A stretch of 64,000 nt of DNA, from the NCBI GenBank assembly GCA_903822545.1, contig CAIJPN010000069.1:124001-188000 (forward strand). Reading direction: 5' to 3'. This DNA is from an uncultured Anaerolineae bacterium. GTDB lineage: Bacteria; Chloroflexota; Anaerolineae; Anaerolineales; Villigracilaceae. The position numbers and the translations under genes were made by a program. Each line of letters opens with the position of its first letter. The first letter of the stretch is position 1. The notes beneath the pieces are model-generated. The model was not told where the DNA came from, made no database searches, and was given only the letters and a program-made list of their open reading frames with translations. Below are positions 37,005-38,741 of the stretch, piece by piece.

Positions 37005-38591
37005 TCAAAGCCTTGTCACCGGGATCATGCGCCCGGTGCCGAAGGATTTTTCGCTGACCTTGAGAATGATGCCAGCCTGCCAGCGTTTGTGCTCGGACTG
37101 GCGCATGGCGGCGTTGCTCTGGTTGGATTGCACCAGCGACTCCAGTTCGGGGCTGACAGCAGCATAATCAAAGGGATCGACCTGCCCGGGGCGCAGTTCT
37201 GCCGAGGGCGGGCGCTCCAGCACAAAGCGCGGGATCAGGCCGTCGAAACGGGTGTTCACCCAACGGGCAAGCGCATACACTTCAGGTTTGGTCAAATCTC
37301 CAAGCGGGGAGAGAGTCCCGGCCAGGTCGCCATATAGGGTGGAGTAGCCGATCGTCAGTTCGGTTTTGTTGCTGGTATTGAGCAGGAATCCGCCAAATTT
37401 GTTGACATATGCCATCAGGATCAGGGCGCGCAGCCGCGCCTGGATATTTTCCGCGCCGGTGCCGCTCTCTAGCAGTGGGGCCAGGGCCGTTTCGGCGGTT
37501 TTGTGCAGCGGGTCCAGTTCGACTGTCTCGAAGTGGATGCCCAGGCTGGCAGAGAGTTCGCGGGCTGACGTGGTGGAGCGCGGGTCGGTGTAGCGCGAGG
37601 GGATGGCAATACCGGTGACGTTCTCCGCGCCGAGGGCCTGCGCGGCCAGCACCGCCACCAGGGATGAATCGATGCCGCCGGAAAGGCCGAGGAAGGCGCG
37701 TTTTAGCCCATTTTTGCGGGCAAAGTCGCGGATGCCGAGTGCCAGGGCGGAGAAAAGTTCTTCATAACGGGAGGCAGGCGGCAGGGCGGTCTGTTCCGGG
37801 GCGGAATCAAGGCCGGGGAGGTCGATCAGGGCCAGGTCATCGGTGAAAGCTGTTAGCGTTTGTGAAAATCTATTTTCCCTCACCCCTGACCCCTCTCCCG
37901 GTGGGAGAGGAGAATACACAAAACTACGGCCATCGAAAATCAGTTCATCGGTGGCGCCGACCAGGTTGGCGTAGATGATGGGCAGTCCGGCGCGCGCGGC
38001 GTGGCGCAGGCGCTTTTGCACGATGCCGTGACGGTAAGGTGAGGCGGCCAGGCACAGCAGGGTTTGCGCACCCGCGGCGGCGAGTTCGGCGGGCGGATGG
38101 ATGGGGTAGCCGTCGTCCCACAGGTCTTCGCAGATGAGCACGCCCAGGCGCTGGCCTTTGATGGTGATGGGCGGCATGAACGGGCCGGGGACGAACCAGC
38201 GCGGCTCGTGGAAAACGTCGTAGGCCGGGAGCAGGCGTTTGGCGGCGACCAGTTCGGCGCGGCCATGCTGGATGAGGATGGCGGCGTTGTAAAGGTTGGG
38301 GTGATCGGGCTGGCGGGTGGGAGCCGGGGCGAGCGAGCCGACCAGCAGCGGAGGCAGGCCCGCGGCTTCGGCAGCGAGTCCGCCGGTGGCGGCAGCCACA
38401 GCGCGGGTGAAGTTTTCATCCAGCAGGATGTCGCGCGGAGGGTAACCGGGGATGGTCAGTTCGGGGAATAACACCAGGTCGGGGGAGTGGGCGGCGGCCT
38501 GCCGGGCGGCGCCCAGGATGCGCGCCAGGTTGCCGTCGAGGTCTCCAACGGTGGTGTTGATCTGGGCAATGGCAATGCGGAGGTTGGGCAT
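37005..38591 (-). CDS. nadE: Glutamine-dependent NAD(+) synthetase
   Basis: This is a 528-residue two-domain enzyme. The N-terminal nitrilase-type amidase has the triad Glu44 (LFPELTIPGY), Lys118 (AAKRLLPAYDVF) and Cys154 (LICEDLWDD), releasing ammonia from glutamine. The synthetase domain has the PP-loop LSGGIDSS at 303-310, NTSNKTELTIGYSTLYGD, and the usual ending VSEKSFGTGRMIPVTRL. It makes NAD from deamido-NAD. Residues about 227-242 (YSPLPPGEGSGVRENR) come from a palindromic repeat inserted in frame between the domains. The start ATG at 38591 has no clear ribosome site. It follows the VWA/PLP/pyruvate-kinase-like genes on the same strand, across a long palindrome. Confidence 0.93.
   Translation of the reverse strand: MPNLRIAIAQINTTVGDLDGNLARILGAARQAAAHSPDLVLFPELTIPGYPPRDILLDENFTRAVAAATGGLAAEAAGLPPLLVGSLAPAPTRQPDHPNLYNAAILIQHGRAELVAAKRLLPAYDVFHEPRWFVPGPFMPPITIKGQRLGVLICEDLWDDGYPIHPPAELAAAGAQTLLCLAASPYRHGIVQKRLRHAARAGLPIIYANLVGATDELIFDGRSFVYSPLPPGEGSGVRENRFSQTLTAFTDDLALIDLPGLDSAPEQTALPPASRYEELFSALALGIRDFARKNGLKRAFLGLSGGIDSSLVAVLAAQALGAENVTGIAIPSRYTDPRSTTSARELSASLGIHFETVELDPLHKTAETALAPLLESGTGAENIQARLRALILMAYVNKFGGFLLNTSNKTELTIGYSTLYGDLAGTLSPLGDLTKPEVYALARWVNTRFDGLIPRFVLERPPSAELRPGQVDPFDYAAVSPELESLVQSNQSNAAMRQSEHKRWQAGIILKVSEKSFGTGRMIPVTRL
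37878..37912. repeat. GC-rich palindromic repeat inside nadE
   Basis: A C-rich block leads into CCTCTCCC (37892-37899) and GGGAGAGG (37903-37910) around GGT. The whole element is read in frame as PLPPGEGSGVRE within NadE. This sequence type is familiar to me as a dispersed repeat in many bacterial genomes. It lies in a linker between the two enzyme domains, so it can be tolerated. Confidence 0.7.
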
Positions 38592-38630
38592 CAAAAGGTG
38601 GGGTTTTTAATCAGGGATGAACAGTTTCCC

Positions 38631-38741
38631 CGCCCTGAGCGGAGCCACACAGGGTTTGTGTGGCGTAGTCGAAGGGCATTTTAGTGGCGAAATGCCCTTC
38701 GACTACGTTCCTCGCTGCCGCTCGTCAATCCGCTCAGGGCG
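38631..38741. repeat. Compound palindromic repeat upstream of nadE
   Basis: This is a 111-bp element. Outer arms of 13 bp (38631-38643 with 38729-38741) enclose an 8-bp hairpin (38644-38651 with 38657-38664) and an 18-bp stem (38664-38681 with 38690-38707, loop of eight). The arms contain GCCCTGAGC and TCGAAGGGC, which I recognise as a common dispersed palindrome type. It fills the gap between the pyruvate-kinase-like gene and nadE and may also end transcription. Confidence 0.75.

Follow-up and report, generated by a model that had tools for sequence, protein, structure and literature searches.

A TM_ECO-type repeat very probably inserted in frame into nadE of an Anaerolineales bacterium whose repeat copies do not avoid genes

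In the genome of an uncultured Anaerolineae bacterium a short C/G-rich palindrome is read through in frame by nadE. Is it a dispersed repeat which has lengthened a protein, and do its other copies stay outside genes? A first-pass annotation had proposed the former and had called the repeat otherwise intergenic. The source genome (5.5 Mb, a 237-contig assembly, completeness rated 100%) is that of a presumably free-living member of the Anaerolineales; the window is the whole stretch of 64,000 nucleotides that was analysed. Very probably, a TM_ECO-type repeat has been inserted into a β-hairpin turn of NadE, in a lineage whose copies lie in genes about as often as random DNA.

The element in nadE and its host protein

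The following features were assigned.

37005..38594, minus strand: nadE, fused glutamine-dependent NAD synthetase, 529 aa (PF00795 and PF02540; nearest structure 3n05)
37877..37912, minus strand: TM-type repeat, single unit, 36 nt (assigned by sequence, dispersed copies, and stem and third-strand scoring)
37903..37912, minus strand: C-rich hairpin arm CTCCTCTCCC, complementary to the G arm at 9/10 positions
37900..37902, minus strand: hairpin loop ACC, 3 nt
37890..37899, minus strand: G-rich hairpin arm GGGAGAGGGG
37887..37889, minus strand: spacer TCA, 3 nt (CCG, TTA, CCA, CTG etc. in other copies)
37877..37886, minus strand: putative third strand GGGGTGAGGG, mirror of the G arm
37878..37910, minus strand: repeat-encoded loop, codons of NadE residues 229-239 (PLPPGEGSGVR); net gain of 10 residues versus most homologues

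The nadE ORF reads ...PLPPGEGSGVRE... at 37877-37912. In full the minus-strand copy is CTCCTCTCCC-ACC-GGGAGAGGGG-TCA-GGGGTGAGGG, i.e. a 10-nt C strand, a 3-nt loop, a 10-nt G strand, a 3-nt spacer and a 10-nt third strand. The stem scores 9/10 and the putative third strand 10/10, all its positions being G*G, A*A or T*A matches. The hairpin part by itself is weak evidence for repeat identity: CCTCTCCCNNNGGGAGAGG (up to 3 mismatches) had one match in the 64-kb window versus 0.31 expected by shuffling, and at least one match was present in 27 of 100 shuffles of the window. A longer pattern had a single match in the window, with 0 mismatches, versus 0.06 expected.

The layout is that of TM_ECO, with which E. 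coli boxC is presumably identical. TM_ECO is an intrastrand triplex motif of E. coli described in a 2015 paper (PMC4666352). It is reported there from 262 proteobacterial genomes, with 23 copies in E. coli MG1655 which are "always located intergenically". It forms a stable triplex in vitro, stable formation in vivo is called unsupported and the neighbouring DNA unstable; inverted pairs occur in E. coli, often mixing spacer types, and TM_ECO was found not to be tied to mobile elements (PMC4666352). The same source gives the example CCCTCTCCC-TGT-GGGAGAGGG-CCG-GGGTGAGGG-C and reports that boxC was found by a search tool for intermolecular triplexes (PMC4666352). With TM_ECO the Chloroflexota copies share the order of parts (C arm, 3-6-nt loop, G arm, 3-nt spacer, third strand GGGNGAGGG), the spacer variants TTA and CCG and the inverted pairs. 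They differ in that the arms have 10 nt instead of 9 nt (one extra triad) and in that most examined copies of the source genome are in genes, whereas those of E. coli are intergenic. The window copy falls under the definition of the triplex motif, which allows one mismatch, but with 10-nt arms. Judged by its sequence the repeat belongs to the TM_ECO type, with triplex folding as a prediction only. When one repeat pair was searched by blastn, no match came up in E. coli genomes, possibly because of the low-complexity filter; the TM_ECO link therefore rests on the published sequences.

NadE has both expected domains, an N-terminal carbon-nitrogen hydrolase (PF00795, residues 6-229, E 7.8e-20) and a C-terminal NAD synthase (PF02540, residues 282-497, E 1.2e-53). 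Its score against NF010588 was 459.9 bits, below the cut-off of 479; the closest solved structure, by sequence and by fold, was 3n05. The protein was aligned with 91 homologue rows, 11 from genes of relatives and 80 from GTDB contigs, at least four genes being present in both collections and so counted twice; another homologue (L128) was dropped from the alignment because of an in-frame stop in the matched range. Ten extra residues after IFDGRSFVYS were found in the window protein only, and the others have a short turn (0/91 rows with the insert). The nearest protein compared was about 65% identical, and none came from the same species or genus. The absence of the insert from the NadE of relatives, which the first-pass annotation had predicted, was thus observed, and conservation of the segment in distant NadE proteins, looked for as evidence to the contrary, was found in no row.

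In an AlphaFold model of NadE (42 sequences, mean pLDDT 86.7) residues 229-241 connect strands 225-228 and 242-246; mean pLDDT is 55 over residues 231-240 versus 90 in the preceding block. According to the model, the repeat follows residue V226 and occupies the turn of the last β-hairpin in the amidase domain. The location originally given needs correction, since the element is not strictly between the two domains. The insert peptide alone had no meaningful match in the PDB (best E 1.2).

The source genome encodes a second, complete NAD synthetase system, a split amidase of 283 aa and a synthetase of 276 aa (L091 1273-2124 and 2121-2951 on contig C48; the genes overlap by 4 bases). Synthetase-only and amidase-only matches of the split type were present in most relatives searched. 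NadE may therefore be dispensable in the source genome, which weakens its description as an essential gene.

Linkers in the NadE of relatives differ in length and composition. The fused NadE of several relatives (L117, L105, L036, L037, L038, L039) carries other tandem-repeat-like insertions in the same linker and elsewhere, e.g. EARGKGQEARGKGQ, ASCILHPASCILHP and TKDEGRKT; more than one repeat type thus seems to enter this gene. Directly upstream of nadE, at 38631-38741, is another, different inverted repeat. It has 18-nt perfect arms at 38664-38681 and 38690-38707 (CGTAGTCGAAGGGC...) inside 13-nt outer arms, and its core GCCCTTCGACTACG was found twice in the window versus 0.01 expected.

Copies in the source genome, their reading frame and their host genes

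That the nadE element (37877-37912) is a copy of a dispersed repeat was confirmed. A 34-nt pattern (up to 2 mismatches) had 71 matches in the whole source genome and the reversed control had 0; with this number the repeat also has the many copies per genome by which the triplex motif is defined. A 23-nt pattern had 87+77 matches versus 45+37 for its reversed control. Because the reversed 23-nt pattern also fits stems, the copy number was taken from the 34-nt pattern. Structure and location were surveyed in 98 copies at 74 sites (up to 2 mismatches), drawn from the first 100 of 164 places listed. The loop had a length of 3 in 92 of these 98 copies; stems averaged 9.2-9.3 of 10 and third strands 9.3-9.5 of 10. 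Inverted (-,+) pairs made up 20 of the 74 sites and, as in the REPIN/BIME definition of two inverted units at fixed spacing, 17 of these 20 had 32-38 nt between the 23-mers. The copy in nadE is a single unit and not a pair.

Next to structure, location was examined. A site was considered to be in a gene when it was crossed by a single open frame whose codon usage was typical, 180 bp being scored on each side. Among the matches listed (up to 2 mismatches), 47 of 74 sites (64%) passed as in frame inside coding ORFs. Random positions in the same loci passed in 1536 of 2346 cases (65.5%; binomial P 0.72). In a simulation that placed the repeat at random positions in the window, 0.5% passed with 34 nt, 0.4% with 35 nt and 41% with 36 nt. 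Therefore, passing the test means that the frame is kept. In the source genome the repeats do not avoid genes; the reading frame alone is kept. The initial description as otherwise intergenic had to be abandoned in view of this genome-wide count. In-gene calls depend on codon statistics; Pfam matches, read from the Pfam tables, lay across or on both sides of 37 of the 47 in-gene sites, and 10 were without such support on both sides. Two of 44 ORFs scanned had no Pfam match at all. At most three of the other 27 sites resembled genes broken by a repeat. The 64 in-gene copies occupied five of the six frames (21, 18, 16, 7 and 2 copies) and the frame with a built-in TGA was used by none, a result partly imposed by the open-frame filter. 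The stems of in-gene copies were kept as well (mean 9.31/10) as those of the others (9.21).

The functions of the host proteins are unrelated to each other. Hosts include LeuRS, AlaRS, GlyRS, chorismate synthase, shikimate dehydrogenase, NAD kinase, UvrA, a UvrD-type helicase, GlnE, a Mur ligase, dihydroorotate dehydrogenase, UDP-GlcNAc 2-epimerase, an FtsJ methyltransferase and a ThyX-like protein, the last identified through its Pfam match only, with weak PDB matches. For AlaRS, LeuRS and chorismate synthase one full-length gene each was found in the source genome, each with a repeat; other ORFs hold two short matches in addition, one to AlaRS and one of the LeuRS-editing kind. The claim that such repeats enter essential genes is better borne out by these three than by NadE. 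Most homologues of the host proteins lack the inserts. In LeuRS the repeat-encoded residues form an insertion in a chain which otherwise aligns well with solved structures, and in chorismate synthase a repeat-derived segment of 17 residues takes the place of a shorter loop in solved homologues. The best PDB alignment of AlaRS ends before the insert, and the evidence there is therefore a comparison with 29 relatives; chorismate synthase was compared with 29 relatives as well, and both comparisons showed gaps at residue level.

Repeat-like inserts at the same AlaRS hairpin were seen in L270 (G007, another genus) and in L285 (G066, another family of the order), namely RALIPGPSPVGGRESPSPFGRGARGEGG and a longer one. 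This suggests that a tolerant AlaRS loop was used repeatedly. The chorismate synthase loop is variable, and other relatives have other insertions there, e.g. the repeat-looking FDQAQGKRST in L242 (G033) and KPALSAAEGS in L246 (G029). The site is thus permissive in general.

Relatives within Chloroflexota and known repeat families

The repeat was present in 111 of 150 genomes in a sample of the host's family and in 41 of 251 genomes in a sample of the phylum, where its distribution was very uneven. In a complete relative assembled in one contig (G057) 11 of 22 sites were in genes, against a background of 59%. When one locus was tested from each of 29 further genomes of the family, 14/29 were in genes, with a background of 56% (30 loci were tested and 14 passed; the thirtieth, L186, is the source genome itself and failed). 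Two genomes from two other Chloroflexota families, G362 and G306, with more than 100 copies each, had 0/14 and 1/10 distinct sites in genes, whereas random positions passed at 0.652 and 0.715. These two genomes, which double as a negative control for the in-gene test, have a completeness of 82-84% and include many short contigs. The 15 loci of G362 corresponded to 14 distinct sites, and the 15 of G306 to 10 after two contig-edge loci had been dropped and overlaps merged. The in-gene share of the source genome differed from that of G362 and G306 together with a Fisher P of 1.5e-7. We read this as a lineage-specific shift of the triplex repeat out of extragenic DNA and into protein-coding sequence.

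How does this compare with known repeats? The label of a classical GTAG/CGTC REP was rejected; the tag is missing from the foot of the hairpin, whose flank is formed by the third strand (GGGGTGAGGG / CCCTCACCCC). Nonetheless, the repeat behaves like a REP. According to PMC3733652, GTAG and CGTC REPs, dimers included, occur in frame inside uvrA, uvrD-type helicases and tRNA synthetases. Most REPs are intergenic in that account, GTAG repeats are reported in Chloroflexi and CGTC REPs are without a dedicated transposase (PMC3733652). The likeness is that short hairpins sit in genes for UvrA, a UvrD-type helicase and tRNA synthetases, as in the source genome; the differences are the absent GTAG/CGTC tag and the lack of gene avoidance here, whereas REPs are mostly intergenic. 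The palindromic elements of Rickettsia likewise sit in frame in conserved genes for many unrelated proteins, as described in PMC2229807 and PMC10969869. Those of the RPE-1 type have about 105-150 bp, another sequence and obligate intracellular hosts; the 36 nt found here argue against the RPE-1 type.

Thus, in-frame palindromic repeats are known already, as is the repeat type itself. In the open-licence PMC literature we found no prior report of this triplex motif in protein genes, nor of an extragenic-to-intragenic switch within one phylum. We therefore count as new the TM-type repeat in protein genes and its lineage-specific switch to protein-coding.

Insertion, retention and other explanations

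Most likely, and most simply, the repeat would insert widely across the genome. In nadE a TM-type copy would have entered a surface β-hairpin turn of the amidase domain with the frame kept and without a stop, and the inserted DNA would be translated as a flexible Pro/Gly/Glu-rich loop which the NadE fold tolerates. Elsewhere, frame-breaking insertions in needed genes would be purged, and in-frame copies in surface loops would persist, the Pro/Gly/Glu/Ser-rich peptide that they encode being flexible and harmless. We infer arrival by insertion and not, for example, by gene conversion of a pre-existing loop. The host proteins are presumably made and active, and the purging of frame-breakers would account for the kept frame. 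However, random insertion followed by purging predicts about 24-41% in genes (a rough estimate with an assumed coding density), and the observed share was 64% (P 8e-5 or less). Since the latter exceeds the estimate, something beyond plain purging is needed. Faster intergenic loss, an insertion bias to transcribed genes or to whole-codon lengths, or a benefit of the loop are candidates.

Could the in-frame copies have a more trivial origin? An ordinary low-complexity insertion in NadE which resembles the repeat by composition alone might be suspected from the hairpin matches in shuffled windows and the variable linkers of the relatives. The copy number, against 0 for the reversed pattern, and the structure of the window copy with its matches in stem and third strand have already refuted this reading, and we give it hardly any probability. 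If the hosts were pseudogenes or assembly chimeras, in-frame copies would be meaningless, and the fragmented assembly as well as the split system that backs up NadE fit such a view. Yet the frames stay open and show codon bias on either side, the AlaRS, LeuRS and chorismate synthase genes with inserts are the sole full-length copies, the one-contig relative has half of its sites in genes, and a similar insert sits at the same AlaRS hairpin in another genus (L270); this explanation is very improbable. In some mitochondria hairpin inserts are bypassed by ribosomes. By analogy the segment might be skipped in translation or removed from the mRNA or protein, and no protein sequence would be added. 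But a skipped insert needs no frame, and 47 frame-keeping sites were counted versus at most three possibly frame-breaking ones; the unused TGA frame points in the same direction, although this argument is partly circular owing to the open-frame filter. Ribosome bypass is disfavoured, and skipping or removal in general is scarcely more credible than the low-complexity reading.

Two further explanations concern how copies arrive and why they stay. A RAYT might move the repeat as it does the GTAG REPs, which would make it a classical REP and its in-gene copies by-catch. This would agree with its size, its hairpin and the REP/REPIN-like inverted pairs, and Y1_Tnp genes are present in the source genome. 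There are four, and no copy (up to 4 mismatches) was found within their loci of 2.4-3.4 kb each. Furthermore, the repeat has neither a GTAG nor a CGTC tag, and TM_ECO was found not to be tied to mobile elements (PMC4666352). We regard RAYT mobilization as unlikely, about one chance in a few. In-gene copies might also be kept because they are useful, as flexible linkers or as DNA or RNA structures in genes, beyond mere tolerance. In favour are the in-gene share above the rough neutral-purge estimate, the in-gene stems which are as intact as those of other copies, and the repeat-like AlaRS hairpin inserts in several genera. On the other hand, the unrelated host functions and the many homologues without inserts speak against usefulness, and equal stem integrity may reflect recent arrival in a search whose pattern favours well-kept copies. 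Usefulness is doubtful, less likely than a RAYT and considerably more likely than pseudogenes or skipping.

For the spread of the repeat itself we tentatively consider, at somewhat less than even chances, that it has become a protein-coding mobile element in one Anaerolineales family, spreading with no avoidance of genes by a process that produces whole codons or is filtered for them, and that it stays strictly outside genes in other families of the phylum. If this is true, dozens of enzymes, essential ones included, share repeat-encoded Pro/Gly-rich loops. A single phylum offers, for the same triplex repeat, lineages that keep it in intergenic DNA alone and a lineage that does not. This comparison makes it testable what admits a structured DNA repeat to genes, be it the way it inserts, selection or the tolerance of proteins. 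Also testable is whether the loops that repeats encode in single-copy tRNA synthetases are neutral. For annotators, such loops are repeat DNA and not features of a protein family.

Other arrangements of copies were seen as well. At L064 1519-1627 (contig C183) of the source genome there are three direct tandem copies, 43 bases apart, with no gene running through. In G306 many contigs (C25, C133, C470, C479, C513 and others) start within a few bases of a copy, as if the assembly breaks at repeat copies. These contig ends often carry two overlapping copies on opposite strands which share one hairpin and have a third strand on both sides.
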